Shown piece by piece: positions 25,315-64,000 of a stretch of DNA of 64,000 bases (position 1 is the first letter of the stretch; the number at the start of each line of letters is the position of its first letter). Location: NCBI GenBank assembly GCA_021399445.1, contig JAJTUQ010000008.1, positions 248,001-312,000 of the forward strand, in the 5' to 3' direction. The notes under the pieces are model-generated. The model saw only the letters and a program-made list of their open reading frames with translations. It was not told the origin of the DNA and ran no database searches. The stretch comes from Xylogone sp. PMI_703. Its lineage: Eukaryota; Ascomycota; Leotiomycetes. Made by a program: the position numbers and the translations under genes.

Positions 25315-26713
25315 TTAAGGCAACTCGGCCTCGATGACGCTCTCATACCCACGGCCATCTGGGTAATACTTAACCAGCTTAAGCCCAGCGTCGTTGATTA
25401 CTTTCATCCACACAGCCTCTGTCCTTTCTTTACCCGACGCCAGCAACATCAGGCAATCCATGGCCGCTTGGTAGCAGCTAGCACCCGTAGAAGGGATTAC
25501 AATATCGTTGATAAGCACCTTTGAGTAACCACGCTTCATAACGGCGGCAGTTTGCTTGAGGATCTTAACGGATGTCTCGTCCGACCAGTCATGCAGGACG
25601 GCATGCATGAAATACGCTCGAGCTCCTATACATCTCCCTTAGTATAGTATCCAGGCCACAGCGAGCGACAGAGGGTGGAGCTTACCTCGAACAGGCTGTT
25701 CAACGTCCTCCTGCAAGAGATGGTGCGCCACAATTCTGATCTTGTCCGTGCTAAGCTTGACCTGAGCGACAACCTCTGGCAGATCCTCGAGCACGAGAGA
25801 CCCAGCGGGAAGATCCGGGTGCTTCTCGGCCACGCGCATAAGATCAATACCGTGGTGTCCGCCAATGTCCACGACGAAGGGGCTGCCGTCGGTCAGGTCG
25901 GCACCGTCGAGCAGCGCTTGGGTATCGTAGAATTGAGGCCAAGGTCGTTTTCCCTTAGTCCACACATCCATGATAGACGAGAAACTCTCCTGGAGTGTGG
26001 GGTACGCGATACATCGCTCAAAGAAGCCCTTCTTCTCGGGGAATGTATCGATGTAGCAGCTCGCCTTGTCGTCCAACGGCTTGCGGTAGTTGGTCTTGGC
26101 CAGGAAAGCGGGCCAGTGCATAGCACATGGTGCGACGTGGTCGGTTCTATGGGTTTCGATGTTCAGCAGTTCGACTTTGAGAGCTATTACTGAGTATGGA
26201 TGTATTACCTGAATCGAAGACTTGGAACGACAAGGGTGTCCTTATCTCCTAAGGCAAGGGAATAGGGTGTAGGCACATAGCGATCGTTTGCGGTTTCTAG
26301 AATGATGTGGTTCGAAGCCAACAATCGCAGTTGGTGGCCTAGTGAGCTGATTAGAAAGGCCTTGCCATTGATATCCGTAAATATATCATCATATAGGGTA
26401 AGGAAATCTTACGCAGTAGCTCCGGCTCCACATCCTTCTTGCTTATGTTAGCCAACTCGTTCACATCCTTCTCGCCGCCTCCAGCAGCGACCCATGCTTC
26501 AAATAAACCAATGTCAATAAGGACCTGGAGCACAGAGTACAAAATTGGTTCCTCTATAGCAAGTCGCATGGTCTTTTCTTCCTTAGTTTCTAGCATGTGG
26601 AAAAGCTTGCGGGCCGCCAAAGCTACTTGCTGTCGCGTAGAATACTGGCTCTCCAAGGCTTCCGCCCCGACCTTGTTGAGCTTCTCGATTAAATGTTCTG
26701 CAACAGCAGCCAT
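25315..26713 (-). CDS. SAM-dependent O-methyltransferase, 400 aa
   Basis: Four exons join without any lesion: 26713-26413, 26338-26209, 26146-25686 and 25625-25315, 1,203 nt in total. Each intron is GT-AG, 60-75 nt. The N-terminal third is helical, like the dimerisation region of plant-COMT-type enzymes. The SAM-binding motif I is [10 protein letters not shown] (about residues 234-243). LHDWSDE carries the likely catalytic base His309. Fungal members O-methylate phenolic polyketides and similar secondary metabolites in the cytosol. It is isolated among transposons, yet a TCTACCGCGCA site 96-106 bp upstream matches the PKS-cluster motif, so co-regulation is possible. The substrate is unknown. 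Confidence 0.88.
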
Positions 26714-36098: not shown

Positions 36099-38114
36099 AT
36101 GACTGCATCTGCCAGAAACCGTAAGTTCCTGTCTGACCTCACCCTTTATTTATTCGACACATGAACTGTTTCCTCTGATACGTTTACTTTAATTTAGCTA
36201 CGCGAAGCATTCATGGCTGCTGGACTTGTCGAGTCCGTAGAAAGAAATGCGACGAGACCCGCCCTTCGTGTTCGGTATGCATTTCTCTTGAATTAGAATG
36301 CCATGGATACGGTCCCAGGCCCGAGTGGATGGATAATGGAATATTGCAGAGAGACCAAGCTTTGAAGATCAAATGTATAGTCAGCCAGACTAAATATAAG
36401 AAGGGAAACAGACAACAGCCCTCTGCGACTCGGTCGCTGCAGGATCTCAGTAGTGGGCAGGGCTTATTGTCGACTGAAAACTTATCTTCGCCGGCGCCCC
36501 CTTCATCAATTTCAACATGTCAACAGCTCAATAAATGGAATGGGACAATAGATCAAGACTGGTCGCATTTCCAACTCGACGAAGCAGATCTGAGTTCATT
36601 CATTGACCCGGCATGGAGCACATCGTCCCACAACGATATCCTCACAACAGGATCCTTGTTCGATCTTGATATCTACACAGCTATATCTAGATCCTCTACA
36701 AATAAAGAGTCAGAGCAGGATTCCTCATCATCTGAATCGTCTAAAGGACTACTACTATTTGGTTCTGACTCACCGATCATACACGAGGCGTCGATGCTGG
36801 ATCAAGATACAGAGGATGCATTATTTATGAACTACTTGGATCAAGTCTTCTATTTTCAGTATCCCTTCTACCACTCCCTTAGTAGACATGGAAGAGGCTG
36901 GCTGTTTTCAATTCTAAGGCGATCTAAACCCGCTTACCATGCAACCCTCGCTCTGAGCGAGTGTCACCTCCTCTCAACGGTGCCATTAAGTGGTGACATA
37001 CCGACTAGCCTCGTCCACACACACGCCAACTATGGCAACTATGACTTGGCTTTCCAAGAGATGCGACTTATGATGGAGGGTTGTTCCACGTGGAATGAAA
37101 GCACCCGTCTAGTACATAGCCTAGAATGTCTCACATCTATACTGCAGCTCTTGTTCTGCGAGGTATGTGAACTGTATTTAATAGTGTCTTCAATTCTAAT
37201 ATTTTACTCTCAAGCTCCTCGCTGGTGGATCAAAGAATTGGCAGGAGCTTCTTTGGGCTGCTGCTAGTTTCGTTCCTTCCCTTCTACAGGAACGGATGTC
37301 TCTTACTTTACCAGAACTAGCAAGTCCTCACTACCCAAGCAAACAATTGTATAAGAGAATTCTATATGCCGAACATGACAGTGCAACTAGTGTCTTGTTG
37401 GCTTCCTTTATATCGTTTGATATTATCGCTTCTGCTTCTACTCGGTCGAGTCCCTTCTTGAACGTTGATCACATCCAGGCGCTAAATAATCTTGACATTT
37501 CTCTAGAAAGTCTAATAGGTTGCCGAAACTCAGTCATGGCGCTCATATTTGAGATTTCTTCGTTGGATAGGTGGAAGAAAGAAGCTCAGGCAGCTCACAA
37601 GCTAAGCATTGTCGATTTGGCGAAGCGTGGTAGTCAAATCGAGGAGCGTCTTCGGCATGAACTGGCAGACATCGAAAAGATACGGTCTACAGAGCCATCA
37701 TTATGGAGCCCACCAGGAATGCTGTCGGTTCCCTCTCATTCTGAGATTAGCCAACTATTTGCCCTCTCGGCAATTATCTACCTCCATGTTGTTATTTCGG
37801 GTGCATATCCCGACCTGCCCGAGATTGCGGAAGCTGTTTCAAAAGCAATAGTTGTTTTTAAAAGTCTAAAGGACCCTAGATTATTAAGGAGCGTGGTTTG
37901 GCCATTCTGCGTTTCTGGATGTTTAGCGCTAGAAGAACAGCAGAGCTTCTTTCGTGATCTTGTTTCTGGAGCAGGGATCACTCAATGGACATCTGGGACA
38001 TGTTTCGAGGCTTTTAAAATCATGCAGAAATGTTGGAAGGCAAGGAAGACATGTTCATACAGTTGTGACTGGACTACGGTGATGGACCAATGTCACCCTA
38101 TTTTGTTTAGTTGA
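36099..38114 (+). CDS. Zn2Cys6 transcription factor, 628 aa
   Basis: Three exons join in frame: 36099-36120, 36198-37162 and 37215-38114 (introns 77 and 52 nt). Exon 2 opens with the binuclear zinc cluster: Cys15, 18, 25, 32, 35 and 42, spaced C-x2-C-x6-C-x6-C-x2-C-x6-C. A Ser/Thr-rich linker follows. The rest is helical with the pattern of the Fungal_trans_2 family (LLAGGSKNWQELLWAAASF, then a long C-terminal half). It should bind CGG-containing DNA in the nucleus. It lies about 12 kb left of the PKS cluster and could be its regulator, since the cluster motif contains CCGCG, but the third hAT separates them and its own upstream DNA shows no motif copy. Confidence 0.9.
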
Positions 38115-44705: not shown

Positions 44706-45039
44706 TAGGATCACTGCTTACATGGAACATGGGGACGCTCCCACGAGCCATACCTCGTAAGTCTGTACACAGTAATTATTGGCCAGACCTATATGCACAT
44801 TCGCTCTGCCTACATGAATATGTTGATCACCAGTATCAGCTTTTGCTCGTGATGATGATGGTGAAGTTCTATTCCGCCCGGCTAAGCCTAAAAGGGCACT
44901 AGTGCTACGAATCTATCTAGTACAAGTTCTATACAGATAACTCTTCCCTCGCACCAGCCCATACTATGTGTTCTCCTATCTCGTTATTGATTGATAATCT
45001 ATATATTCTTATTCGTCGGTTTCCCGGTGTATTTATGTG

Positions 45040-46000
45040 TTGATAAGTGTGCTTGGAGGCCTTCCTCCAGTCGTACAACGTCCTATTCTCGGTGGTTGAA
45101 TCGAGGCCTATCTGTACGGATTGTGGGGTGTATTATCAGGGTTATAGTGTTAATTGTGGTGTTGATTGTATGTTGTTGTTCCCGGCTATTGGTTCATAAT
45201 TCAGTCGTTGTATTCACCATTTCCATATTAAGGCTTCAATTCTTATCCGTTTCCGCCTTTCCACCGAGGTGATATGACAGATTCCCAGCTTTCTCTCCGG
45301 CCCCTTTGCATCATTGAACGTCTGTGTGATTCCCATAGTACACATCTAAAAAAGAAGTGTTCTATAGTTTCTTTCGCTTGCCCACATGCACACATCTCTA
45401 TTTTGGCCGCGTTGATTTTGAACAAGTAATTGTTTAATCGGTTCTTCCCGGTACGTAACTGTGCCAATATCCAAGTATTGATTTGTATTCTCTAGCTAGA
45501 TAATGCATTGTAGAAGCCAGCACATGTCTACCTACATAGACCTTCTACCTTGCATCCCCTTCGATCCTTTTCCGCATCCTTCACGGGGCACAGCCGGTTC
45601 GAAGCCAATACCAGTTTGCACCTTAAGCCTACCTCCATAGCCAACTCAAAGATTCCATCCTCGATGGCCATCTTTAAGATTCTATTCTTCTGGTAGACTG
45701 ACACGCGCGTCCTTCCTCTCAAGCCATATAGAAAGTGTCGTAACTGCAGTCCGCCCTCCCAGTCTTCTGTCGCTTCCATCATATGCCACGCCTCGCAGGT
45801 TGTCAGTCCTGTTTCGCGTTACCTTGCCAGATCTCTCTTACAAGGCCGACCATGTCTAGCAGAAGTTCATCCGTCCGTATTCTATCTGTACCCAGAATGG
45901 CCAAGCAACACAGTGTTATCCCTCCTATTAACCAAAGTGCTTCGTCGTTCTCTCTGTGGATTCAAGCATGTTGAGTATATCATTCGCACTTCTTGCAGAT
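45040..46000 (-). mobile_element. Non-LTR retrotransposon 3' fragment (Tad1-like)
   Basis: On the minus strand, 45243-45467 encodes AQLRTGKNRLNNYLFKI followed by CACGQAKETIEHFFFRC, the characteristic C-terminal Cys-His region after the reverse transcriptase/RNase H of fungal Tad1-clade LINEs. Upstream (45528-45900) degraded frames match the relic at 11226-11830. The reverse transcriptase itself is missing. Confidence 0.7.
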
Positions 46001-47700
46001 CATCCTGACATTTGTTCTCTCCTCCTTCCAACAGAGCAGCCCAAAGGCACCCCAAGGGTGTCCTATCTCACAACCCATGTGTATACCGATTGTAGGATCG
46101 ATCGTAGTCGTGTGTCGGGTAGTTTTTAAAGTATTCCCTTGTCGCTAGTGGGTAATAAGGGTTGAAGCCCTTTTACAACCGTAGCCTCAGCCTGCGGAGG
46201 TTGTGGGCTGATATTGACCCTTCTTAGCTCTGCGAATACCTGGGGCAACAGTATTCACAGGTTCCCAGCCGGCACCACGTGGAGGTGAGAGTCATCGCAG
46301 GCCTGTATTTGATAAGCTTCTGAACCCCTAGTTATTTATGATCGGTGGTTTCGGCGGTGGAATAACTATTATGTGGGTGCGGTTTCCAAACCACAAGTAT
46401 GAGATAAGCTCTAACGAGCAAAAGCTGGCCGGCGATGACTCTCACTTCCCCCGTGGTGCAGGCTGGGAACCTGGGAATGCATTCTCAAAGCTAAGAAGAG
46501 TCGACCCCTTCAGCGATTACGATGGATTTGTGCCAAAACGAACGATAACGTTGTGGTGCGACGACATGGCGGTGAGCCTACGTGACGTGCGAGTCTCTCA
46601 GTTCGATCACAACAATGCGGGACGCCTAGGTCAATAGTGTGAGCGCGGATGGACGGCAGGGAAAAATGAAGGATATAGGCCCTCGAGGGTCTTCGCACTG
46701 GTGTTCTGGAATGGAGGACACAGGTTGTCGAAGTGAGAGGTCGAGGCCTTTGGGATTCCTTCACTGCTCTTCAACATTCAACGCTCGGAACCTTTGCACT
46801 CAGTGCGCTTGTTATAATTATATCGGATCACTGGACTAGCATTCTCTGCTCTAACCTATTTTCAATCCAGCACAACCCCTCTACCACCGCATGCAGTTGC
46901 CGGCATTTGGGTGGTTAGCTATTTCGGTCTATTATGGGATGATTTACTTTGCATCGACTCGACATTTGTGGAGGATTATTGGGTGCAAGAGAGAGGTCTT
47001 GCGTGTCTACGGACTACAGGCTACAGAATGGGAATAGGGTAGGTGATGGACAAGTATTACGGATCAGGGAATGTATTTTTAGAGAAGAGTCTCTGGATTG
47101 CTACGGGTATGGCTGTGTAGGGCTCAGTACCGAGTTTGGACGTTGCTAGAATATGCTTAGCGGATCTTGATAGCTGCCTATGGGTTTCTCCCCCGGCGTA
47201 AATGAACATCATCATCTTATCAAATACAACAACGTTTTTACCTCCTTCCCATGAAGCTATTGGAGCCCGGTCCGTTCCATTACGACTGCGGATAGTATTG
47301 TGATATTGGCAATTGTATTGTGTTTATTATGGTTGTATAGCTATTCTATCGCTCTACTTCCTACGGTTGCGTTCTACCGCAGCACATCATCCTTTCCCTT
47401 TCACAATACTATTTGTTAGGAACCATGTTCTCCAGCTGAACGTAAATACTTAAAACGTGACAACAAGTTAAGAATAGGTAGAAGTGCATGGACATAGAGA
47501 TCTGGCCTGGCCCCTTTTTTTCTGAGATGACGGATGCTGCAAGTGTTGTAAGACTCATTGTTGACCGTATTTGTCTAAATGTATAAGCCTAAGAATCTTC
47601 ATTGCAACAACGACACTTGGTTCGAACAATCCGTGCATCTCTAGTAGGTAGGTCATGCAATGTCATGGCAAGCCTGACGCGTTTAGAGGTCTTGAAAGAA
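46001..47700. other. Gene-poor spacer with an imperfect inverted repeat
   Basis: A segment near 46200-46300 (minus) and 46434-46510 (plus) share gatgactctcac, gtggtgc and ggctgggaacct. A third relative is at 12330-12370. No gene was supported, including the open frame 46338-46637. Confidence 0.45.
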
Positions 47701-47893
47701 TTAGCGTTAGCGGTCAAACCACGACTTCTGATAAAACTCAGCAGGACCGTGAGTTTTGCAGGATGATTAGCTTTGCCGCCCAGCTTAGGGACTTTGGGCG
47801 GTAAAGCTAATTTTCCCTGTACGCAGTAGGCCTCCATATTTTGAACGGGCATACAGTATGATTAGCGTTATAAGATCTCCGCGGTAACGCTAA
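47701..47893. promoter_or_regulatory. Cluster motif array upstream of the aromatic prenyltransferase
   Basis: Copies and variants of TTAGCTTTACCGC: TTAGCGTTAGCGG at 47701, TTAGCTTTGCCGCC at 47767, the reverse GGCGGTAAAGCTAA at 47797-47810, a half copy TTAGCGTTA at 47862, and the reverse GCGGTAACGCTAA at 47881-47893. They lie about 150-340 bp before the start codon at 48040. The same motif is found before the PKS genes, so this is a likely activator binding region. Confidence 0.75.
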
Positions 47894-48039
47894 ATGCTGA
47901 TTCTATTTCCAAGCCTATCACCATCGTGTATATTAGTCTTCTGTTGAAATTCCCGAGCAACTAACGTCACACCATCCACCTCTTATACAATTGATGAGAT
48001 TGTTGTGAAGGCAAGGAAGCTTAAGATCTTTGTTATGCT

Positions 48040-48954
48040 ATGGAGAGCCAGTCGCCTATCAAGCCGTTCCCAACCGATCTGCTTCTTTCTGACCTAGAAC
48101 ACATAACGACGTCAATTACTGCACCGTACTCGCGAGCACGGATTCAAGAAGTGTTCAAAACTTTCAGCAACAATCTTTCAAATGGAGCAATCGCGATACG
48201 CACCACTGATAGACCGGGTGATTCTGTCCACTTCTGGGCAGGAGAGCTTAGCCGTGTCGATACCATCTCCCTTGCCGTAGACGCTGGCCTCGTACCCCCT
48301 CTACATCCGACGGTACTTCTCCTCCGATCCTGGTTCTCCATGTACGACAATGAGCCACAACCATCTACAGACTTCGACACCGCTAAAGGGCTCGTAAAAA
48401 CATGGATCTACTTCAAGACCCCTCGACCTATCGAGCAAATCCTGAGTATAGAACCTGTTCCAGAGTCCTTTCGAAACCACATAGACAAGTTTAAACAAAT
48501 TGGCGCTCATCAGGTTCATTTCGTCGCCGTCACTTATGGAGTGACTTCTGTGAATATATATTTCGTCATGCCTAGTGAGTTAAGCTCTGACGGAATCACA
48601 AATATTATAAGAACTCTCTTACCAAGCTGTTCGCCCATCACCGCCGCTGAGATGGAACAAATTATGAAATGCATGAAGCCGGGAATACCCACTGTCCTTG
48701 CAGTCACGCTATCCTATTCTTCCGGGACAATTGAGAGACTCTGCTTGTATGCATTTATGGTATCCAGAGAGCTGGTGCTGAGCATACAGATTGGGCAGAG
48801 ATTGGAAAAGTTTTTGAAGGAAACACCGGTCTATGACGAAAAGGATTCGATCAATATTGGATGGAGTTTCGGAAGAAAGGGAGAAAGGTATATGAAAATG
48901 GATGTTGGATATTGTGGGGGGTTCGGTAATCTTATGGATACATTCAAAGATTAG
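48040..48954 (+). CDS. Aromatic prenyltransferase, ABBA/Orf2 (CloQ-like) family, 304 aa
   Basis: A single exon of 304 residues, the usual size of the soluble, metal-independent Orf2/CloQ class known from Streptomyces and a few ascomycetes (2,7-dihydroxynaphthalene prenylating enzymes). Features recalled from that family are the N-terminal LLSDLEHITTSITAPYSRAR, the VNIYFVM strand and the C-terminal SINIGWSFGRKGERYMKMDV. No DDxxD motif is expected and none is seen. It should attach a dimethylallyl, geranyl or longer group to a phenolic ring in the cytosol. Start choice: ATG at 48040. An overlapping out-of-frame ATG lies 5 nt upstream at 48035 and might lower translation. Adjacent to an FPPS-like gene and two PKS genes. 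Assignment is from memory of family patterns, so moderately sure. Confidence 0.75.
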   Translation: MESQSPIKPFPTDLLLSDLEHITTSITAPYSRARIQEVFKTFSNNLSNGAIAIRTTDRPGDSVHFWAGELSRVDTISLAVDAGLVPPLHPTVLLLRSWFSMYDNEPQPSTDFDTAKGLVKTWIYFKTPRPIEQILSIEPVPESFRNHIDKFKQIGAHQVHFVAVTYGVTSVNIYFVMPSELSSDGITNIIRTLLPSCSPITAAEMEQIMKCMKPGIPTVLAVTLSYSSGTIERLCLYAFMVSRELVLSIQIGQRLEKFLKETPVYDEKDSINIGWSFGRKGERYMKMDVGYCGGFGNLMDTFKD

Positions 48955-49994
48955 GATTTGAGGTTCCTGACCACTGTGACAGCCATGGTCCAGCAATTTT
49001 TGGGAACAGTAACTTCGTAGGCGTCACATGGATTCAACTAGTAGTGGAAAATAGACTACTAAACCGATGTTCGATCTATTAATATGATTCTTTATATACT
49101 TCCTCATATCTTGAAACCTTAATCGCATACCTTTCTACAGTGAAACTTGTTATAAGCATACTGCGAGGGCTGGAATTTTACGCTTATAACTGAAATATGC
49201 CTGTGCATTTTCATGCCCCAATAAGAAGGATTCAACGCTGTATTTTATGAAGTATTGGTAGTCTCAATTTTCTTTATCTCGGAGAGGCGCGGTTCTGATA
49301 GAGAAGAATACCACTTTATTCGTCGCATACTGTCTCAGGGCGAACATTATTCTTATCTGTTCCTTTTTACTAGATGATATACTCGGTCCTATTTAGGACA
49401 ATCAATCGCAGCCTCACCTCCGTACATGATATCTCTGCGGATGCATGCAACCCTCCTCTAGATGAGGCCCTGCTAACGATGGAGTTAGTTTGGATCAGTA
49501 GCGCATGGCAAAGAGCAGTATCAAGACGACTAATACAGAGCTGCTGCATGCTACGCTGCTGACTGGACAAAATTGGGTAAGTACTAGAACAACCTCTGAT
49601 TCTGTTGCGGTTAAAGTATTTTCCACTAAAGACCTCTCCATCTATACACAGTGGCATGCTTATTATTCTGCAACTGTGCTACTCCATCTATTCAATAGAT
49701 GACACAGGTTTTGATCTCACTACTTCGGCAAATAGGCTTATATTTGGTATAACTGTCAGTCACCAATACAGCCAAATAAGATTTGTTGTGTACATTAGTC
49801 ACAATTAGGATTGAAAACTGCTAAGCCAAGTTAAAAGGCTTGAAGGATAAATACTGTAATTCAGAAAATTATTTCTTTTCTCATCTAAACGTATACAACA
49901 ATAAAATGCAGCTATTAAAGCTTAAGTAGTCAATAAAATTTAATTACAGCTTTGCAAAGTTTTTATCCTTTGACCGCCTGTTTAACCGTAAATA
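48955..49994. other. Intergenic, no supportable gene
   Basis: This lies between the convergent prenyltransferase and FPPS-like genes. Short overlapping frames occur at 49370-49700, but no family is recognised. AT-rich DNA near 49840-49960 probably holds the terminators. Confidence 0.45.
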
Positions 49995-51096
49995 TCAGAC
50001 TCGTACAGCGCGTTTATCGTTAACATAGTTGACAAAAATATCGAAAATGGATCTACGTAGACCCTGGCGCTCATCTAGATTGTTGATCAAGAGCTTTAAT
50101 TGTTGAAAAATGGTCAATTTTTCTTCCTTAAACAAACCAATGAGCCCTGAAGTCTCAAACACCTTTTGGACTTTCTTCGCCGCTTGTGTATCATTTAGGC
50201 CATAGTTATTGTATATCAGGAGACGCTCAGCCTCACCACATCTAGATAAAGCCTGTACTACTACCCAAGAGCATCGTTTCTCCAAGATACTGGTACCAAC
50301 GTTGCCAGTTTGATAGCCGTCGCCGAAAACATCCATAAAGTCGTTCTGGGCCTGCTCAAACTTTCCCAGGGGAATTAGTATATCTTTAGTCTGTTGAATA
50401 TTTAGCGGGGTGGCTAGATTGAGAAAGTACAAAGCCAGTAGAACAGACAAGTAAAAGCCGGAGTACCCGCACTTGAGTGTCGTGACCTGATCGTACCGTT
50501 CCCTACTCCACGTCTCAGGACTTCTGCTAATAGCATCGCTGGCGTGGCCCATCTCCACAAGACGGCTGGTCTCGTGAAAGCTTTCCATCATTTCAATGTA
50601 GCACGGATGGGCTCCAAAGTGCTTTTTGATGAGCACAAATATACCAGTTTTGAGGAGAGCGGCATCGTTGATGGCCATCATACCCACGTTTGGCTGCAAA
50701 TACCAGCATTTGCGACCAAGATGCGTGGACGAACCGGTTCTGATATCATCAGCAACCTCAAGATAGGCTTGGAACATAGTGACTAGCCATCCGAGGATAC
50801 TCAAGTGTCGGAATTCCTCGTCCGATAGATCTCTGTTGAGCATAATGCGACCCACTTCGGGGAGTACGAGTACTCGAAACAGCTCCTTGCTGTTTGAATT
50901 GAATAAGAATGACTTGAAAGTTTAGTTTAGCTTTACAAGAATTCCCATATCACAAAGAGAATAATGAGACACGTACAGCTCGAATATGTTCCACAACCTC
51001 AGAGGCCACATTGGTAGCGGCGGCATGTTCAACGATTTCTTCTACTAAGGACTCAAAGATGGCGAAGGACTGCACATTATCAATCAAGAGGGTCAT
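49995..51096 (-). CDS. FPP-synthase-like protein with altered active site, 336 aa
   Basis: Exons 51096-50977 and 50885-49995 are joined by a 91-nt intron. The fold is clearly that of a fungal farnesyl diphosphate synthase: AIFESLVEEIVEH, LSILGWLVTMFQAY, CWYLQPNVGMMAINDA and CSWVVVQAL align by eye. Yet key residues are changed. The first Asp-rich motif is DDIRT (residues 86-90) instead of DDxxD. The second is NDFMD (221-225) instead of DDxxD. The GGKxxRG segment is missing, the Arg pair after the first motif is HL, and TGKIGTD is TGNVGTS. So canonical chain elongation is doubtful. The N-D-F-M-D-V-F-G-D spacing resembles a class I terpene synthase NSE/DTE motif. It may be a GPP synthase variant, a terpene synthase-like enzyme or a non-catalytic partner. 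Its promoter is shared with the HR-PKS. Confidence 0.8.
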
Positions 51097-51235
51097 GGTT
51101 AGTGGTTATTCTCAAACGGAAAGATTCTCTGTCAGATATTCTTGGTTTGATAATATGGTTCGAATGAATAGACTGTGTTCAATCGCCTTCAAGTGCATTC
51201 GCCCTGATAATTCTTTTGGTTTAGGGGCACGGGTC

Positions 51236-51271
51236 CTGCGCGGTAAAGCTAAATCTGCGCGGTAAAGCTAG
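51236..51271 (-). promoter_or_regulatory. Cluster motif, two copies between FPPS-like and HR-PKS
   Basis: CTGCGCGGTAAAGCTAA at 51236-51252 and CTGCGCGGTAAAGCTA at 51255-51270 (minus-strand reading TTAGCTTTACCGCGCAG), 19 bp apart. They are 140 bp from the FPPS-like start and 340 bp from the HR-PKS start, so they may serve both divergent genes. Confidence 0.85.
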
Positions 51272-51608
51272 GCCTAGAAGGCAAAGTATCCAAATGCGGT
51301 GGAGCAAAATCATCGTGGTAGTAAAGTACGTGCAAAGTAGGCGTGAGGGCTCGTGATTCGAGCCATTCTAGTGCAATTAAGCTTTAAGTAATCTTTACAC
51401 GGACAGGCAAGTTAATAACTTCTAGAAAGTTTATCTCAGATTATTGTAGTCAACCATAAAAGAATAATACCGCATCTCCTTCAACTCCATACGCATAACC
51501 ATACGCATAACGAATCACTCCGGCGAGAAGGTCCTTTTTCTTTTCCTTTCTTGTATTTTTCTTTTTTGCCTCACTTTTATTATTAATTTGAAACACCAAA
51601 GCCAAACG

Positions 51609-54600
51609 ATGGCAGGTTCACACCCAGAGCGCAGCGAGTATATCCCAATTGCCATTGTAGGCATGGGCATGCGACTTCCCGGAAGCTGTAACGACGCTCA
51701 ATCATTCTGGGAATTTCTAATCAATAAACAGGATGGCCGCAAGCCAATTCCAGTGGATCGATTTAACGTCAAAGGGTTTGTTTCTACTTCCTCAAGTCCA
51801 GAATCGGGATGCTTGCCCATGGATTGTGGCTATTTCATCGACGATGACCTCTCACGTTTTGATCCCTCAGTCTTCAGCATGTCCAAGGCAGAAGTCGAAC
51901 GAGTAGATCCACAACAGCGGTTGTTACTTGAGGTCGTCTATGAGACATTAGAGAATGCCGGGGAGGTGGATTGGCGCGGGAAAAATATCGGGGTCTACAC
52001 AGGCAGCTTTGCTCAAGACTGGATGCAGATTCAGGCAAAGGATTCACAGGGTTCCTCTCCCGCGAGTGCATACCGATTGATGGGCATGGACGACTTTGTA
52101 CTGGCGAACCGTGTGTCGTATGAATTTGATCTACGGGGTCCCAGCATGTCCGTCAAAACTGGGTGTTCATCGGCCATGGTAGCTCTTCACCTTGCCTGCG
52201 AGGCCCTGCAACAAGGCAGCTGCAGTGCCGCCATTGTGGGTGGTGCCAACCTGATTTTGACCCCGGAGTATACCTATGCTCTGAATGACCTGCACGCACT
52301 TTCCCCGGATGCATCCGTCAAAGCATTCGACATTGAGGGAAATGGCTACGCCCGAGCTGACGCGGTCAATGCGGTCTATATCAAGCGATTAGACGATGCT
52401 GTGCGAGACGGGAATCCTATTCGGGCTATTATCAGGGCGACTGCTACCAATTCGGATGGAAAGACACAGGGTCTCAGCAATCCCAGCAGAGAAGCACAGG
52501 TTCAATTGATGAGGGCAGCATATACCAGAGCAAATATTGCAAATATCTCGGAAACAGCGCTCGTAGAATGCCACGGCACCGGCACCGCGGCGGGTGATCC
52601 TACAGAAACCGGTGCCATTGGCGATGTGTTTGGAGAGAAAGGCGTCTACATTACTTCCGTATGTCCGTTGCGTTCTAGAGACCACAGAATCGTATTGCTC
52701 ACATCATACAACACGTAGGTCAAGCCAAATATTGGCCATGGAGAGGCCGCATCGGGACTAAGCAGCATCATAAAGTCTGTCCTGGCGCTCGAGAACAAAA
52801 CCATCCCTCCGAATATCAAGTTTAAGACACCTAATCCTAAAAGTAAAATCACGGCTATCCCTTACTCTGCTTGAGGTTTCATACAAATGCTGACGGCCAT
52901 GTTCGGTCCTAGTCCCTTGGAGTAAATCTCGTCTCATTGTTCCGACTGAACCAATTCCATGGCCCAAGGGGCGTCGTGAACGGATCAGTGTCAACTCTTT
53001 TGGCATAGGCGGAACAAACGCACATGTCATCCTCGATTCTGCTGCTTCTTTTCTTCCACTTGAAGCTCCCATGCTGAGTTGTCCTCTTCCCTCCCACTCA
53101 CTGCTGGTATTCTCCGCTCACCGTCAGTCTGCCCTTGAACAGATGATACGTAAGGTCGACCAGTTTTATCAGCAGGGTAAGGGAAGCATGAATCATCGAG
53201 ACTTGGCATACACGCTTGGAGCGCGGCGGAGCCATCACCAGCATCGAGCATTCGGAATAGTCTCCACATCCTCCCACTCTATTCAGATGTTGTCACAACT
53301 ATCCGAAACAACTGAAAAAAGAAGGGGTTTGCTCTTTGTTTTTACGGGGCAAGGAGCTCAGTGGGCAGGAATGGGCAAAGAGCTACTCGAGATTCAATCG
53401 TTCAGTGATGACATTAACATCATGGATCATGCTTTGAGATCGCTGAAAGAGGCGCCAGGCTGGTGTATTCGAGGTCTGTAGACTGACCGTCGTTCAGAGA
53501 TTCATTTACTGACGAAGAGTGAGCTGCAGAGGAACTTTCAAAACAAGCAACAAACAGCAATGTCGGTAAAGCAGAATATGCTCAACCACTATGCACTGCT
53601 ATTCAGATCGCCCTACTCAACCTTCTTCGAATCTGGAAAATCACACCTGCCGCCGTCATCGGACACTCGAGTGGTGAAATTGGCGCTGCATATGCTGCAG
53701 GAGCCCTCACCATGAGTGAGGCTATCATTATTGCATACTATCGTGGATTCGTTGTTGCTCGTCAGACCAGGCGTGGTGGCATGGCCGCCGTTGGACTAGA
53801 AAAATCCGAGATGGAAACCTACCTTAGATGCACCAGCGGCGTCACGATTGCATGTGAAAACAGTGACATGAGTCTGACGATTTCGGGAGATAACGAAAAG
53901 CTTGAGGAGGTCCTTTCCATGCTGCGAGCAGATAAGCCTGAAGTGTTTGCACGACGTCTGAAGGTTGATAGAGCATATCACTCCCGTAAGCATTACCTAT
54001 GCCGTGTTATTTTGAAATATATCAGCTAATACAGAACTAGATCATATGAATGAAATAGGTGATGAGTATGAGTTACTGATCCGAAATATTCATCCAACGA
54101 AAACCCAGCTTGATGTACCGTTCTACTCAACTGTGACGGGAGGCCTGATCACGGATCCAGCCACCTTCCAAGCTTCGTATTGGCGACGCAACCTTGAAAG
54201 CCCTGTTCTCTTTCACACAACCATGCAGTCGGCTCTTCAGAGCCAACATGGTCCGTTTCATGTCAGTTTGGAGATAGGACCACATGCGGCCCTTGCCGGA
54301 CCGTTACGACAAATATATAAACAGGCGAACTTGCATATCCCTCACTTTTCCTGCCTCACAAGGGAACTTGATGGCATGGCCACAACATTATCCGCCATGG
54401 GCGAACTCTACCGCCATGGATACAAACCGGACTTTGAGGCGATGAATCGTGGTGGCAGAATGGTCACACAGCTTCCGTCATACTCGTGGGCACGTGAACA
54501 AAGCTATTGGCACGAGCCGCGGGTGTCCAGGGAATATAGACTAAGAAGATTTGCGGATCATGAATTGCTAGGTCTTCGAATCTTGGAGAGCACAGACCTG

Positions 54601-57600
54601 GAGCCGTTGTGGAGGAAGATCCTTCGATTGAATGACGTGCCGTGGCTTCGCGATCATGTTGTGAATAGCAACATAGTTTTTCCTGCTGCTGGCTACATTA
54701 CCATGGCAGGTGAAGCTATTCGCCAACAGTGCAACATAGAGGAGTACACAGTGAGGCAGGTGATTCTCAGTACTGCTCTTGTGCTCGACGAGACTAAGTC
54801 GATCGAAATTGTGACGAGGCTACAACCTCACCGCCTTACGAATACATTAGATTCAGAGTGGTTCAATTTCTCCATTGCGTCGCATAATGGTGCAAGCTGG
54901 AACAAACATTGTGTGGGACAGATCAGACCAGGGCGATGTCATTCCATTCGCAGTAACATTGATAAGGATATCAAGTTACCACGTCAGATTACCGCTTCAA
55001 GATGGTATCAGACTATGGCAAGAGTCGGATTGAAATATGGTCCTGCATTTCAGGGGCTGGACGATATCTGCTCTGCTGTTACACACAAGGTAGCTGTGGC
55101 AACAATTGTGGATGGTCCACGAAAAGACAGCTCTTCAAAGTACGCACTGCACCCGATCGCACTAGATCAGATGTTCCAGAGCTTAGCTGTCGCATTTGCA
55201 TATGGACAGCCAAGACTACTTAACCAACTCACGCTACCCACCAAGATTGATGAATTGTATGTTGGTTGTGGCTCTGGAGTGCATATACAAATCCGTGCAG
55301 ATGTTATCGACTCTGGAAACAACGTGATGATTGGGAATGGAACAGGCTTACTGGCAGATGGAACTGTGGTCATGGACCTGACTGGAATGGAACGACGTCC
55401 ATTGCAAAGTGAGACCCCAGCCACGACAGAGAATGAGAGTGGTGCTGTTCAGCTGGAATGGAGACCCGCCGCCTCTCTTATGGACATAGGCACTCTTATC
55501 CAGCCTGTGGTCGACATAAAGGATTGTTTAGAGCTTGTTGAGAAACTCAGCGTATTGTGCTCAATAGAGACATTATCAAAACTCGGGAACGTAAGAACGG
55601 AGGTCTGTCATATGCAAAAATTTCGAGATTGGAATGAGACTAGATGCGTGCAACTCCGCACGGGTACCAAGAAGACGATTATCAATAGAATTGAGGAGTT
55701 GTTTGAAATGGATTCGGCACAACGACAAGCCATGATTGACTCTCTGACGTTGAAAGCACAGGGAACGCGAGCAGCGCCAGTTGCTACAGCCATCGCCCGT
55801 GTGTATAGATCCATTGTGGGTATATACAATGGATCAATAGACCCTCTGGATATCTTGTTGAAGGACGACCTTCTTCCAGGTATCTACAATTTCTGGGATA
55901 CCTCAAACTACAAGCCTATGATTGAAGTCCTTTGCCACGAAAATCCAAATATGCGAATTCTGGAGATTGGCGCGGGGACGGGTGGGTTCACGTCGACGAT
56001 CTTGCCAGCACTAATATCTGCTCAGGGGGAACGCATGTTCGACACATACACGCTTTCAGATGGATCAGCGGAGTTGCTGGGTACTGCAAAAGAGCAGTTT
56101 GCGAATTACGAAGATCTTGAGTTTGCTGTGCTAGATATAAACAGTGATCCTGCCGGACAAGGTTTCGAGCTGCAGTCTTACGACCTTGTTATCGCAGCAA
56201 ATGTGACCACTATCCTTCCCAATTCTTATTTCGCACTGCTGACAATAAATCAAAAGGCCATTCATGAAACTCGAAGTCTTGTGCAGACCCTAACACATTG
56301 TCGTGCTCTTCTTCGCCCAAGTGGTTGTCTTTTTCTACAAGAGCTCTGTGCCGGTAATAACACCCCTAGAATGACAACTTGATTCCCCAGTCTAACATGA
56401 ATACTTAGGAACGAAATGGGTTAATTTTATAATGGTATAGTTTTAAACTTCTAACCTGTGGCAAATAATACTTACAGGCTTCAGGGAACTCTACCTGGAT
56501 GGTGGTTAGGCGAATCCGATGGCCGACAGCACGAGCCATATGTGAATATTAGTGAGTGGGATGTAGCTCTGCAGAAAGCCGGCTTCACCGGGGTCGAAAC
56601 ATCGATCTTCGATCAAGAAGCACCGTATCAGCTCAACGTCCATATCGTTTCCCGGCCAGCCCCGGACACAGTTAAAGAACACCCGAACAAACTTGCTCTT
56701 CTTGTTTCCGACCAGACACCAACGAACCATGCAACCGAAAAGCTCAAAGAGATATTGGTGTTGGCAGGCTACGACGTTGATGTGTGTTCACTATTCCAGG
56801 AGCTACCAAGAGGAGTTGACATTATATCTGTGCTCGATATTGAGTCGGGCCCGTTTTTCAAAGACATTACAGAGGCAAAATTAAAAGCGTTTATTGCCGC
56901 TGTATCAAGCTTTTCAAATGACAAACGTGGCATCTTATGGATCACGCCAGGGGTCCAGATCGAAGTGAAAGATCCTCACTATGCACTGATGCTAGGCACG
57001 GCGCGCACGGTGAGACAGGAGCTCGGAGCTAGATTTGCCACTCTAGAGTTGGACTCAATAGATACAGCGGCTTGTGAAGTTTCTGTAAAGGTATTTGAGC
57101 GGCTAATGAAAAGTGGCCGCGATTTTCGCGATCATGTGAGCTGGGAATACGCACTGGTGAATGGGGTGGTATATGTTCCTCGATATCGCGAGATGGACAT
57201 TGCAGCAACGTTCAGTAGCAGTATACTCCGGGGGGTGACAAGCCCCGCTGACAATACAACAACCAAAAAATTGAAGGTCCAGAGAGCAGGTCTTCTGCAG
57301 ACATTGGGCTGGGCAGAGGATATCTTGAGTCAACCAGGCCCGGATCAGATCGAAGTGGAGGTGCGGGCGGCATCATTGAACTTTCGTGTATAGTCAAGCC
57401 CTACTATTCCCTTTCCAGAATCTATCTTTCTCTGACCATTTTGTTTAGGACATTCTGGTGGCTATGGGTATTGTACGGCACAATGCAGGTGAACACACGC
57501 CGTTAGGTATCGAATTTGCCGGCATCGTTCGCAAGGTCGGCACCTCAGTAGATCAGATCCATATCGGAGACCGAGTAGTCTGCTGGGCGCCTGGAGCTCT

Positions 57601-59686
57601 AGCAACTCGAGTCACAGTACCGAAGACGGCATGTTTGCGTATTCCAAATAACCTGACTTTTGAAGAGGCTTCATCGATGCCCACCGTGTATGGCACAGCC
57701 ATTCGCTCCATCATGGAAATTGGACGTCTCACACCCAACCAATCAATTCTTATCCATTCGGGAGCGGGGGGCTTGGGACTTGCAGCAATCCAAATTGCAC
57801 AGGTGGTTGGAGCAGAAGTATGCTGATTTGATCCATCGAAGACTCCTGGACTAACAAATTGGCAGATCTACGCGACCGTTGGGAATGAAGCCAAAATCGA
57901 ACATCTTGTCACTCATTGTGGCATTCGGCGTGATCACATATTCCATTCCCGGGACAACTCTTTCGTGGCTGGGGTTATGCATGCGACAAAAGGTAAAGGT
58001 ATAGATCTCGTACTCAACTCACTATCTGGAGAGTTATTACACGAATCGTGGAAATGTGTCGCGGAGTACGGAACGATGGTGGAACTGGGGAAACGTGACA
58101 TGATCGGCCAAGGACAGCTTGCGTTGGATCGGTTTTTGGCCAACAGGGCCTTCTACGGGGTGGACGTCTTCGATTATTTTGACTGCAGGCCACAGCTAAT
58201 ACAAGAGTCTGTGATTGCAGCCCCTTGGTCAAGTAGATATGGATGCTAATCCAAGCGTTAACAGGCTTCTGATAAAGATTCTCGAGCTCTTTGAGCAGGG
58301 TCAAATATCTCCCACATACCCCATCAAGACATTTGAGGCTGCAGATGTCGAACAGGCATTCCGATATCTCCAAAAGGGACAAAATATTGGTAAAGTTGTT
58401 GTCACCTTCCCCGGAAGTGGTTCAGACTTGCGTGTGTCACGCAGCTTACCAACCTTACGTCTCCGGCCGGATTGCTCGTATCTGTTGGTTGGCGGACTGG
58501 GCGGGCTTGGGAAGGCGACCGCAATCTGGCTTGCGGAACACGGTGCCACGCATCTCATTTTCGTTAACAGAAGAGGGAAGAAGGGCACCGACCAGGGATT
58601 CTTCGAGGAGCTGGATGCTCTGGCCTGTTCCGTTCAAGTCTTTTCTGGCAGTGTTGCCGACCTCGCATTCGTGCAGAGAGTGGTTGAGAAAGCAAGCAAG
58701 CCGATTGCGGGAGTATTACAGATGTCCATGGTGCTCAGAGTATGTCCCATTCCCGCCGCATTAGTATACTGGCATTCAACCACTAACAATCGCAGGATGG
58801 TGAATTCTCTGCCATGACGTTGGAAGACTGGGATGCTGTCACGGCGCCCAAAGTCCAAGGCACGTGGAACCTTCACCGTTGCCTCGATAATAAACAGCTG
58901 GACTTCTTTGTCCTCTACAGTTCTGTCTCTGGTGCAGTTGGTCAACCAGGGCAGACCAACTACGCCGCAGCAAACAGCTTCCTGGACGCATTTGTTTCCT
59001 ATCGACAACGCCTTGGTCTTGTGGCCTCCGCCATCAGTATCGGAGTCATGGAAGACATAGGCTATGTGAGTAATACCCCAGCTCTCTTGGAGGGCTTTCG
59101 ACGCGTGGGTGCACAGATGGTTCGTGAAAAGGCATACCTGGAAGCTCTACACTTAGCTATTCTTCAATCAGCATCATCACCAGGTTGCGTCGTACCTACA
59201 AGAGCCTACATCAACCCCGGGCGATTTGGTATTGGTATGGCTTCCGGACTGTTTGCGCAGAAAAGAGGTCCTGCTCATACTGGCAACAAGGCTCACGCAG
59301 GAGCTGACCCCGCCGTCTCCAAAAAGGACACACTGGGAGATTATATCGAGTCGATCATTACAGCAAAAGCCATTGATAATAATGCTACCGGAGTCGAGTT
59401 GATCGCGAGACATATTGCAAACTGCGTCCACAACTTCTTGGCAGATAATACTAATCAGGATCCCGATCTCTCCAAAACCCCGGCTGCCATTGGAGTTGAC
59501 TCTCTTGTCGCTATCGAGCTTCGGGCTTGGTGGAGACAACATCTACGGTCAGAAGTTTCAACGCTGGAACTCATGAGCGGGAGGAACTTTCTGCAGCTTG
59601 GCGAACTTGCATTATATAAACTGCTCCACACGGAGCAGAAGCAGCCCACCTCCAGTGCTCATGGCATGGTATACAGGCATTTCTGA
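51609..59686 (+). CDS. Highly reducing polyketide synthase, KS-AT-DH-MT-ER-KR-ACP, 2,502 aa
   Basis: Eleven exons (51609-52658, 52719-52842, 52913-53473, 53530-53985, 54041-56353, 56409-56434, 56485-57387, 57449-57817, 57866-58206, 58265-58739, 58796-59686) sum to 7,509 nt with every phase consistent. [10 protein letters not shown] with Cys186, [28 protein letters not shown], Ser625. [18 protein letters not shown], His936, and a second DQMFQS. C-methyltransferase: [10 protein letters not shown] at 1370. [13 protein letters not shown] at 1914. [15 protein letters not shown] at 2120 with YSSVSG and [18 protein letters not shown], Ser2442. All catalytic residues look intact and there is no thioesterase or other release domain, so the chain must be off-loaded by a partner, probably the SAT of the NR-PKS. 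One exon has only 26 nt. The leader is pyrimidine-rich. Motif copies lie 340 bp upstream. Confidence 0.93.
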
Positions 59687-60665
59687 GGTTGCTTGGTCCT
59701 CTGGCTTTTGCAAATTCTTCAGTTTACTTACATAGATACTGGGAAGACGTCTTTCCACCACGAAGCATGACCACGAAGTTGTCTGCAAAATGGCTTGACG
59801 ATCGGTATATGACTAAGGTTTCTAAGCGCTTACCGACCACGATTATTGGTTACATGGACAACTACTCAGAAATAAAATATCTACTCGACTAATCCAGAAA
59901 TTTCATCATTTTAAAAGGTCAAGTTACATATATAAACTGTTATATAAATTTCAATTTTTAGTACAAGGAAAGAGATCCGTGACACAGAACGAGACTATTA
60001 TTTAATCTCCTGAAATAATTAATTCTATTTACAATTAAAGTTAATTATTTCGAAATATATTTCTTTGAACGTTTAAGTTATTTTATAATTGCTTTAATGA
60101 GTATTAACTTTAAAAGCTGAATATTCTAAAAATTAACAATTGTCACGGGTTAACGCCTAATAGCTATCCGTGTAGAGCATGAATATTTCCATACTATCCC
60201 CTCAGACTCCATTTCGTTGAGCTCGTCAGACCAAAATTATATGCAGGGGTATTGTCCACTCAGATTTCACTGTTGACACTTTTGATGCCGTATTCATATG
60301 GCAACATTTGCCAACGCTAAAAACGGCCTATTTGGCCGTCTGGAGTTAGAGGGGATACAGAATTAGGTCATGTGACCACCCATAGCCAAGCTGACCGGCC
60401 AGCCGGCCGGCATGCAACCATACAATCGTACAACCGTAACAACAACTAATTAAGATTTCTTGTCATTAAACTTATCTTCATGATTAAAATTCTGAAATTT
60501 GATGAAAATCGAAAAAATGTTCTCTATTAATATCAATTAAGTTGTTAACAACAAACGGAACTCATCTTTCAATGAATATTAAAGAATAGTACAACACCAC
60601 AAGCGAGTAATGACGGACACTTCAGAATTTATGCTCATGACCAAACCAAACTCTTCAACTGAAGT
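59687..60665. other. Intergenic, AT-rich, no gene
   Basis: This is the convergent region between the HR-PKS and the crotonase. 59930-60140 is AT-rich, suiting terminators. A gaccggccagccggccggc palindrome lies near 60391-60409. The small frame at 59689-59892 has no recognised content. Confidence 0.5.
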
Positions 60666-61705
60666 TTAGGGTTTCCACGGCCCGGGACCAACAAACTTCA
60701 GCAATTCTTGGGCTAAGTTCTTCTCAAATGGAACACTTGTCTGCCACCCAGCTTGCAGCAATGCCTGAACACGCTGGGGCACAGAGCCCTGCGCAAAGCC
60801 TGCACCAAAAGCATCCCAGCTTTGTTGCCATTCAAATACTGAGGGAAAACCAGAACGCTGGTTGATGATCGCTTTTGCGGTAGAAATAGCGTGATGGTCC
60901 CAGCCTGCAACTCGACGGGCGAAGGTATCAATGAAGTGCTCAAATTGCGCATCTGGAATGGCACGATTGATCCCTTTACGGTTTGCCATGTTAGCTTCTA
61001 ACAATTTGCAAGGATCTCCATAGGGGTAACAGAAAGAACGGCATACATCCGTAAAGGGCAGCGGTGTCAGCATCAAAATCATCTGCTCCGAGAACCACTT
61101 CGAGCGCCCTAGATCGTCCTACTAACCTGGGTAATAATTCCAATCCACCACCAGCCGGGGTTAATCCTGGTAGTAGAGAGTATTAGTCAGAGCCGCATAG
61201 GGGCGCACGGCTTGTGTGTGCCAAGGCTTCTTTGCTGACACTTACCGACGCCCACTTCAACATGCCCAAATGTTGCCTTTTCCTTGCTGGCAAATCTGAC
61301 ATCCAAACCTGCTGCAATCTCGGCAGCTCCTTCACGGGCGAGGCCTCTGATTGCCGCAACAGTTAGGACCGGGAGATTTGCAAGACGAGTGACATTGCCC
61401 CAATAGACTGCTGTTGTCAGCTCAGGGGGAATATTGTTCGGGATGATGTCCCAGTGCCCGAGCCAGATGTCTGGGACGTTAGAATCAAAAACCACGACCT
61501 TCACGTCGGAATCCGCTTCAATCTGGTCGATAAGCGCGTAGTAGCTCTCCAAGAACGCGGTGCCTACGATATTTAACGGGGGACAGGAGAATGTAGCGCG
61601 CCAGTAGGCTGGAGTTACTTTTTTAGTAACAATAAAGCCCGTATCGCAGCAACTAGAGACATGTATAGCCGCAATGAAAATTGAAACGAGAGTACGAAGA
61701 TGCAT
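60666..61705 (-). CDS. Crotonase (enoyl-CoA hydratase/isomerase family) with N-terminal signal, 295 aa
   Basis: Exons 61705-61246, 61166-61047 and 60973-60666 give 888 nt with matching phases (introns 79 and 73 nt). The N-terminus MHLRTLVSIFIAAIHVSS is a signal peptide or anchor, unusual for CoA-dependent crotonases, which are normally cytosolic, mitochondrial or peroxisomal. The crotonase core follows: IRGLAREGAAEIAAGLDVRF, FGHVEVGVG joined over an intron to LTPAGGGLELLPRLVGRSRA, the site of the second oxyanion-hole and Glu region, then INRAIPDAQFEHF. In a PKS cluster it might act on a CoA-, ACP- or free-acid intermediate, perhaps hydration, isomerisation or cyclisation. It is divergent from the NR-PKS over a motif array. 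Relatives with signal peptides exist in fungi to my memory, without clear function. Confidence 0.82.
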
Positions 61706-61855
61706 ATTGTTAAAGGTGGATAAAATCCGCGGTGTTCTGTTTGCGTTGCCAACGAAAGCCGTTCAATCAGCAGTCTTTTATATCTCAACTACTTGCAATA
61801 GCAATCACGGACAATTATTAGCTCTACTACAATCCATATACTTTACTACCCAGGC

Positions 61856-61932
61856 TTAGCTTTACCGCGCAGATTTTAGCTTTGCCGCGCAGGCTTTAGC
61901 TCTACCGCGCAGGCTTTAGTTTTGCCTTACGG
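61856..61932 (+). promoter_or_regulatory. Cluster motif array, four units at 20-bp period
   Basis: Units start at 61856, 61876, 61896 and 61916: TTAGCTTTACCGCGCAG, TTAGCTTTGCCGCGCAG, TTAGCTCTACCGCGCAG and a degenerate TTAGTTTTGCCTTACGG. A partial copy, TTAGCTCTACTAC, is at 61818. The array lies between the divergent crotonase (about 150 bp away) and NR-PKS (about 370 bp away). Twenty bp is close to two helical turns, so bound factors would sit on the same face of the DNA. Confidence 0.88.
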
Positions 61933-62304
61933 ACTTTGACCATGCTGTGGGACCAACATGGCAAACGTGATCATGCCTTCAACTACGGAAGTACGTCTCA
62001 CGCCGTTAACACTGCACCTATAATTAGTTGTTTACCTGATATTGCTACCAGTGTTACCCCTTTTCTAGCACGTGCACGGGTTTCGAGAGGAAAGTTGCTT
62101 TAGTATAAGTGTCTCATTTAGGAGTCAGAGACTATGATTTGATCAGTAGAAATAACTTCGTATGATACTACCAACAAAAGATTCCAGAGTTGTTACAAAG
62201 GGATGCTTTTGGCTTATTACAAACACAGATTTGTTAATCGTGAGATAGTGTCTTGACAGACACGTTGTAATAAGTACATCTACTAAGAATTCGAGGGTTC
62301 GAAG

Positions 62305-64000
62305 ATGGCTACCTCAAGACTCCTCGTGTTTGGAGATGCGTCAATTATGCCTCTGTGCGCAATACAGCGGATATTCACTGAATGTGCATTGCGTCAGTCA
62401 GAGTCTCTTCGAAGTTTCATTCGCAAGGCTACAGATGCCATTCAGATCGAAGTGTCCAAACTCCAACCTCACGAGCGTGCTTCTTTTGGTGCATTCGACA
62501 GCTTTCTCGAACTTGCCGAACTATATGACAAGAAGGAAGATACCTTGGGTATCGTCCATGCAGTCTTGGTCTGTCTAATTAGATTGGGAGAACTTATTCT
62601 GTAGGCCGGCAATCGTTCTAACACCACATCAGCTGTAGTTGTTCTAACAGTTCAATATACAGATATAGCGAAGAAGATCACAGTATTTTAGATTGTCACG
62701 GAGACTCTAAGGTGCACGCGCTGGCTATTTGCAATGGCCTACTTCCAGCCACTGCTGCGTCTATTGCGAATAACCTGGAAGAATTATCCCAGGCCGGAAT
62801 ACTGATTCTAGTCATCACTTGCCGTCTCGCTGCCAACGTGTCACGCCGTTCAAAAGAGATAGAAGACAGTTCGAAGGAGTCGTGGGCCTTTTCTGTCCTG
62901 GGTGCAGATGCACCCCGTGACATCCATCACATTCTGGATCAATTCCACCAATCTCAGGTAAGCCCAGATATATGCAAACCTACACCTATAGAGAGTATGG
63001 TAATAACGAGGATACGCTTTAGTCTATCCCTGAGCATCGACAGGCATATGTCGGGATTTCCGGCCAAAATTGGGTCACAGTCTTCGGCCCACCGTCGGTG
63101 CTGAGAGAATTGCGTGCATCTCCTCAGCTTCTGAACGCGGATATTGTGGCTACGCCAGCATATGGAGCAGTTCATGCCTCCCACCTCCGGCTTCCCGATT
63201 TCGATAGAATAATTGGCTCTTCTCCGCTTTTGAATCGACGAATCAAGGACCGCTTCAACCTCATATCTGTTCCTTCCACGCACACGGACAAGAGGACGAT
63301 TTGGACTGACATGCGTGGTCTGCTAGAACATAAAGTATTGCCCGATATATTGACAAATTTCATCGATGTATCCGCCCTGTTCAAAAGTGCAGTATCATGT
63401 TTCCCGAAAGGAACAAATGTCGAGTTGCGTGCCATGGGCCCTACGAGTCATTTATCGCCGCTGAAGAGATACTTGAAGATGCAGGGTGTCTCAATGGCGG
63501 AGGTCAATCCCGTATCGACTCCATCAAAGCCGTGTGAAATGCTTCGCGCGGGCTCAGACCACATAGCTATTGTCGGTATGGCTGGCAGATTCCCCGGATC
63601 AGAGACGGTAGAGGAGCTTTGGGAATCGCTGATGCACCGCAAAAGCTTTGTTCGCGAGGTAGGAGCCCCCATATATGATCATTATTTCTATCGGTTGTTG
63701 AAGTTGAATCCCGTTTTATAGATTCCCAAGGAAAGGTTTGACGTGGAAGCCTACTTCGATCCTACCGGCAAAGCCAAGAATTCCATGACCACCAAGTCAG
63801 GATGCTTTTTGGAACATCCAGGAGAGTTTGACAACTGGTTCTTCAATATTTCGCCCCGAGAGGCGCTCCAAATGGACCCCACCCAACGTCTATTTCTCAT
63901 GGCTGCGTATGAAGCCTTGGAATCCGCCGGCTACGCACCTAACAATGGGCTTGCGACGCAGACGGCCCGAATGGGGACATTCTTTGGACATGGTGGAGAT
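62305..64000 (+). CDS. Non-reducing polyketide synthase, 5' part (SAT-KS), truncated by window edge
   Basis: Exons 62305-62600, 62651-62957, 63023-63658 and 63722 to the edge stay in frame (introns 50, 65 and 63 nt) and give 506 residues. The start has the SAT (starter unit acyltransferase) pattern: LLVFGDASIMP, then ALAICNGLLPA with the catalytic Cys126 and VHASHL with His252. The KS begins DHIAIVGMAGRFPGSETVEELW and continues CFLEHPGEFDNWFFNISPREALQMDPTQRLFLMAAYEALE. The KS active site and later domains (AT, PT, ACP, release) lie outside. An intact SAT next to an HR-PKS without a release domain suggests starter transfer, as in resorcylic-acid-lactone or olivetolic-acid-type pathways. Confidence 0.92.

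Follow-up and report, generated by a model that had tools for sequence, protein, structure and literature searches.

A repeated unit in the promoters of a polyketide-prenyl gene cluster

The stretch of DNA analysed here (the window, 64 kb) covers bases 248001-312000 of contig C24 (1,296,432 bases) in the 50.1-Mb genome of Xylogone sp. PMI_703 (Leotiomycetes). Within it, a short repeated motif marks a polyketide-prenyl cluster of five genes, encoding an aromatic prenyltransferase, a polyprenyl-synthase-like protein, a highly reducing polyketide synthase (HR-PKS), a crotonase-like protein and a non-reducing polyketide synthase (NR-PKS). The motif is a 17-bp unit, YTAGCKYTRCCGCSSAR, to which, on sequence grounds, a single sequence-specific activator (or repressor) very likely binds to control the whole cluster. 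As such it is a control element of a known kind and not of a new one.

The presence of the motif, put forward in an original prediction made from the letters of the window, is real. A search of both strands of the window with TTAGCTTTACCGCGCAG, allowing up to three mismatches, returned 8 matches against 0.02 expected from dinucleotide shuffles, and none of 100 shuffles reached 8. These strong copies are confined to three intergenic regions (47767-47893, 51236-51271 and 61856-61912). The consensus YTAGCKYTRCCGCSSAR was derived from the eight of them, and 10 of its 17 positions are invariant throughout. CCGCG, which the original prediction linked to a Zn2Cys6 factor, is not invariant; the shorter CCGC is, being kept in 8/8 strong units. 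The 17-mer is asymmetric and each unit holds a single CCG/CGG triplet. Weaker units were scored with a matrix made only from the other two promoters, which gives the background p values quoted below; mismatches are counted against the motif as originally written.

In promoter 3, the interval 61706-62304 that separates the crotonase-like and NR-PKS genes, three strong units on the plus strand follow one another in exact 20-bp steps, at 61856-61872 (no mismatch), 61876-61892 (one mismatch) and 61896-61912 (one mismatch). The original prediction counted four units of this period up to 61932; the fourth, TTAGTTTTGCCTTACGG at 61916-61932 (plus strand), is weak, with 6 mismatches and p 2.6e-4, yet it keeps the phase. 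The next in-phase position, 61936, is unconvincing (p 0.028). On the other side, two weak in-phase units on the plus strand precede the array in 19-bp steps, at 61818-61834 (p 3.3e-3) and 61837-61853 (TATACTTTACTACCCAG, p 2.2e-4).

The interval 51097-51608 (promoter 2) separates the polyprenyl-synthase-like and HR-PKS genes and carries two strong units on the minus strand at 51236-51252 (no mismatch) and 51255-51271 (one mismatch). The two copies expected here 19 bp apart were thus found, their end being moved from 51270 to 51271. A weak outer unit on the same strand, TTTGCTCCACCGCATTT, stands at 51292-51308 (p 1.3e-3). The arrangement upstream of the prenyltransferase gene, in promoter 1, is of another type: an inverted pair is formed by strong units at 47767-47783 (plus strand) and 47794-47810 (minus strand), and a third strong unit at 47877-47893 (minus strand), 147 bp upstream of the ATG of the prenyltransferase gene, has as its inverted partner a 9-base half unit on the plus strand, TTAGCGTTA, at 47862-47870. 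Each of these three strong units has two mismatches. A weak unit, TTAGCGTTAGCGGTCAA, occupies 47701-47717 (plus strand, p 7.4e-5). Of the four or more variants announced for 47701-47893, in both orientations, three are therefore strong and one weak, with the 9-base arm in addition, and both strands are indeed used.

Strong units are present in all three 5' intergenic regions of the cluster and absent from both convergent regions, so that most cluster-gene promoters contain them; their placement between or upstream of cluster genes, as originally noted, is borne out. Their distance to the nearer start codon is about 140-257 bp; where a second gene starts from the same region, its start codon is 338-433 bp away. 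In this calculation the start of the polyprenyl-synthase-like gene was placed 2 bases off. Their orientation relative to the genes is variable. Placement and variable orientation together fit a transcription-factor site, and neither a transposon end nor a coding repeat explains them. Each 5' intergenic region offers at least two strong sites, either repeated in one direction every 19-20 bp, which is about two turns of the helix, or paired in inverted orientation; such phased or inverted sets would let several copies of a protein sit near one another. The bound protein would then act on the flanking genes, namely the prenyltransferase gene from promoter 1, the polyprenyl-synthase-like and HR-PKS genes from promoter 2, and the crotonase-like and NR-PKS genes from promoter 3.

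No comparable array was found elsewhere in the window, in agreement with the original prediction: of 26 rows reported by Tandem Repeats Finder, only two, both within 61851-61926, include the motif unit. Tandem repeats of 24 bp and 26 bp were seen at 11639-11971, near or inside open frames.

Specificity of the unit within the genome

The original prediction would have been refuted by a motif common throughout the genome outside clusters, and this is not the case. With up to two mismatches, 10 matches were counted in the whole genome, 8 of them at this locus. Looser searches were compared with the reversed pattern as control. With up to three mismatches there were 77 matches against 82 for the control, 8 here and 69 outside, and these 69 can thus be taken as background. 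Similarly, the degenerate consensus with up to one mismatch gave 23 matches (control 22) and the core 13-mer with up to one mismatch gave 50 (control 54), each including the 8 of the cluster. Three of the 69 outside matches were viewed in 3-kb loci; two fell in no open frame of at least 80 codons and one overlapped two such frames.

The arrangement of the units is more discriminating than the unit itself. A same-direction pair pattern has 4 matches in the genome, 3 of them here, and the inverted-pair pattern of 47767-47810 is found only here; both patterns were written after the locus had been seen, and the control gave 0 for each. These pair patterns separate the locus best from the rest of the genome. 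No second locus with two matches of up to three mismatches within 1 kb appears in the genome listing.

The same picture was obtained with a matrix scan of 184 kb comprising the window and its flanks, which are numbered here on the scale of the window. The eight strong units score at least 24.1, and the best site outside the three regions 18.3. In total 27 sites, the 8 strong ones included, score at least 10, against 22-24 in shuffles. The best single match outside the three promoters is TTTGCTTTACCGCGGCG at 100190-100206 (C24:348190-348206), and a further right-flank match at 82094 scores 14.7.

The genes of the cluster

The aromatic prenyltransferase gene (48040-48954, plus strand) is a single exon of 304 amino acids of the Orf2/NphB type (PF11468, E 7.9e-65). 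The protein search lists at least five relatives besides the protein itself, one of them named, from Mollisia scopiformis (63%); this count is a lower bound, since two paralogues of the same genome, at 30-31%, are missing from the list. Three Orf2-type prenyltransferase genes are present in this genome, at 48040-48954, G000:C25:551716-552585 and G000:C12:7468413-7469231. The two distant paralogues have no match of up to three mismatches nearby, which indicates that the motif does not go with the gene family.

On the opposite strand, the polyprenyl-synthase-like gene (49995-51096, minus strand, PF00348, E 5.9e-37) starts with the ATG at 51096 and contains at least one intron. Its protein reads DDIRT at the first motif and QNDFMD at the second. 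Farnesyl diphosphate synthases usually carry DDxxD, and this enzyme may be altered or of a non-classical type. The HR-PKS gene follows at 51609-59700 (plus strand), with an approximate 3' end and partly resolved exons; KS, AT, DH, MT, ER and KR domains were detected by Pfam on exon segments. The crotonase or enoyl-CoA hydratase-like gene (60666-61705, minus strand) has two introns and encodes 295 amino acids. The exon 1 segment matches PF00378 with E 1e-4, below the family cut-off, and the spliced model is 100% identical to a public protein of Xylogone sp. PMI_703. The window ends within the NR-PKS gene, whose 5' part (62305-64000, plus strand) encodes SAT and KS domains according to Pfam; the right flank adds AT, PT-like, ACP and TE domains and extends the gene to about 68775.

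Farther to the left, the window contains a berberine-bridge-type flavin adenine dinucleotide oxidase (PF01565, PF08031) at 12722-14659 and an O-methyltransferase fragment (PF00891) at 25318-25638, which are perhaps parts of another biosynthetic cluster. The organism itself is described in PMC11708051 as a mycoparasite, and its genome (GCA_021399445.1) is placed there among the ten with most prokaryote-derived genes; prenyltransferases are not a subject of that paper's passages.

Alternative explanations and candidate regulators

Several observations weigh against the control of all five genes by one protein. Within the five-gene stretch, no Zn2Cys6 gene was detected by a six-frame scan of the 184 kb for the cysteine pattern, a scan that an intron-split domain would escape and that was complemented, for other classes, only by the C2H2 pattern. 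No regulator gene was thus recognised inside the cluster, which is unusual for fungal clusters, so the regulator would have to be encoded outside. Among the best 120 of 3141 relatives of the crotonase-like protein there is no Mollisia protein, and the 635,198-base contig that carries the Mollisia prenyltransferase is not met among them either; the place of the crotonase-like gene in the pathway is accordingly argued from its position and the motif only. Two exact fits to the degenerate consensus occur elsewhere in the genome, at chance level, and a weak match at 49268 (score 9.6, chance level) falls in a convergent region. Finally, promoters 2 and 3 resemble each other over more than the strong units. 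About 55 bp can be aligned at 86%, and directly before the array 13 of 20 bases are identical (p 1.5e-4), in a stretch that overlaps a weak unit. The arrays of these two promoters are, as their alignment suggests, probably related by copying, and their copies of the unit are probably not of independent origin. In alignments of whole promoters, only promoter 2 with promoter 3 (reverse strand) outscored all 200 shuffles, reaching 90 when no shuffle exceeded 65; none of the remaining five comparisons did so. Promoter 1 has the unit in a different arrangement, and its overall resemblance to the others does not surpass that of the best shuffle, which argues that the unit itself is constrained.

This resemblance is an argument for regarding the array as a neutral minisatellite, which slippage created in one promoter and which reached neighbouring promoters through one or two copying events, with no binding protein at all. 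The exact 20-bp steps and the degenerating edge units would also suit such an origin, which is possible for promoters 2 and 3. For the locus as a whole it is nevertheless improbable: it does not account for the inverted pairs and different spacing of promoter 1, for the occurrence of strong copies solely in 5' intergenic regions or for the 10 positions kept in all eight units, and no such repeat exists elsewhere in the window. A subterminal repeat or other remnant of a transposon has also to be considered because transposon pieces surround the cluster. The left side has a BED-finger piece (42.0-42.6 kb, presumably hAT-like) together with the dispersed repeats of 44850-47216; on the right, a hAT dimerisation piece lies at 72.4-72.7 kb, with DDE and Tc5 pieces beyond. 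The ends of hAT elements carry short repeated sites. Against this origin, the three motif regions have no counterpart in the genome other than one another. The only genome-wide match of promoter 2 is promoter 3, and conversely; for the part that holds promoter 1, none of the best 40 of 58 candidates, the locus itself apart, extends beyond position 47222 (query base 2823). The gap between the strong units and the best other site of the 184 kb (at least 24.1 versus 18.3), with only two other genome matches at up to two mismatches, points the same way. No dispersed copies of the motif regions were found; membership of a transposon family, which the original prediction had named as fatal to its claim, was thus tested, and none of the three regions belongs to a repeat family. 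An origin from a transposon has hardly any likelihood left. The left repeat DNA (44850-47216) is itself a patchwork of two or more dispersed repeats; their copies, mostly at 71-94% identity, occur on many contigs.

If the unit is a binding site, as preferred here, the class and the gene of its protein can be considered in turn. Zn2Cys6 proteins are the prior expectation for regulators of fungal clusters. By analogy, this class is possible, as the single CCG/CGG triplet of each unit would allow, although the long asymmetric unit differs from the usual palindrome of paired CGG triplets: with one CCG per unit, it is whole units that recur, every 19-20 bp in promoters 2 and 3 and in inverted form in promoter 1. 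The earlier suggestion that CCGCG fits a Zn2Cys6 factor can be retained only to that extent. The 184-kb scan placed Zn2Cys6 genes at -31697, -15348, -132, 36218, 78563 and 115198; those at 36218 and 78563 are the nearest to the cluster, with none between them, and the open frames at 69.3-72.1 kb show no Pfam family. The first of the two, a Zn2Cys6/Fungal_trans_2 factor by Pfam (36099-38114, plus strand), is the protein originally proposed as a candidate regulator. Nearness favours this candidate: it is the closest recognised regulator gene, on the same contig, about 10 kb off with repeat DNA between, and the triplet in each unit suits its class. Its own promoter has no strong motif, the only site upstream (35666-35682, score 9.8) being at chance level. 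Relatives are widespread, in many Aspergillus species (identity 44-62%, query coverage 60-99%) and in other fungi. The one Mollisia relative listed, at 26%, is on a contig of 1,331,786 bases, a different one from that of the Mollisia prenyltransferase (63%); 7990 candidates were scored in this search, and a closer Mollisia relative may have escaped. Given this pattern of homologues, nearness is all that ties the protein to the cluster, and it is rather unlikely to be the regulator. The gene at 78563 encodes an AflR-like protein (77256-78758), the nearest recognised regulator on the right side, of which a second copy lies at about 115 kb. It is still less likely to bind the motif, being nearer to another NR-PKS gene (85315-91998), which is more probably the one that it controls. 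Sites of the AflR type read TCGN5CGA, unlike the unit described here. Thus the original proposal of a pathway-specific regulator can be maintained in part: restriction to the cluster, 5' placement, phased or inverted arrangement and short distance from the start codons all argue for such a protein, while the choice of the candidate gene named for it is not supported.

Two copies of the AflR-like Zn2Cys6 domain, inverted relative to each other, lie about 37 kb apart, at L038:3256-4758 (77256-78758) and about 115198. Matching 17-mers were found at 75370/118391, 77330/116431 and 77779/115982, and an NR-PKS gene with a C-methyltransferase domain sits between the two copies (78563, 115198). The region looks like a large inverted duplication.

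Comparison with known systems

Neither this cluster nor its motif was recognised among the matches listed in literature searches on the core strings of the motif, the cluster type and shared cluster motifs. Judged by title and start of abstract, the papers listed for the core strings dealt with subjects other than fungi or with fungal extracts, except for one on AtfA of Aspergillus nidulans (PMC3108070); the passages of PMC4528345 contained no useful site. Related cases do exist. In the kojic acid cluster of Aspergillus flavus, the site of the Zn2Cys6 regulator KojR, CGRCTWAGYCG, is an 11-bp palindrome found by motif discovery, and as here it is described in the promoters of pathway genes, at most 0.3 kb from the start codon (PMC9961346). 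As presented there, the regulator gene is in the cluster, in contrast to the asymmetric 17-mer, the phased tandem or inverted sets and the five genes without a recognised regulator seen here. The GliZ-type site of the gliotoxin cluster, TCGGN3CCGA, is likewise a predicted motif common to nearly every promoter of one cluster and is called not experimentally proven (PMC4006717). It differs in being a palindrome with two CGG triplets, against one CCG/CGG per unit (PMC4006717). From these accounts, both sites have CG-rich ends in pairs, and in both systems the cluster includes the gene of its regulator, whereas the present unit is longer and asymmetric, with a single CCG. The niiA-niaD divergent intergenic region contains several NirA sites with bidirectional action on the two genes, in primary nitrogen metabolism and with another core sequence. 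The same logic, that shared promoter sites mark members, underlies the motif-based method described for cluster membership, which is a method and not a site. Compared with these known cluster sites, the arrangement here may or may not be special.

A more far-reaching but doubtful proposal is that a promoter module (17-bp site, 20-bp phase) was copied between promoters in a small gene island amid transposons. Five genes would thereby have come under one regulator encoded elsewhere, with a recognition mode (long asymmetric site, same-face arrays) unlike those of the cluster regulators compared above.

For a cluster combining an HR-PKS, an NR-PKS and an NphB-type aromatic prenyltransferase, to which no product was assigned, the motif provides a clean and testable handle. 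The array could serve as a bait for finding the regulator, and so help to establish when the cluster is switched on. The signs that arrays were copied from one promoter to another would, in addition, make this locus a case for studying how co-regulation arises in a gene cluster.

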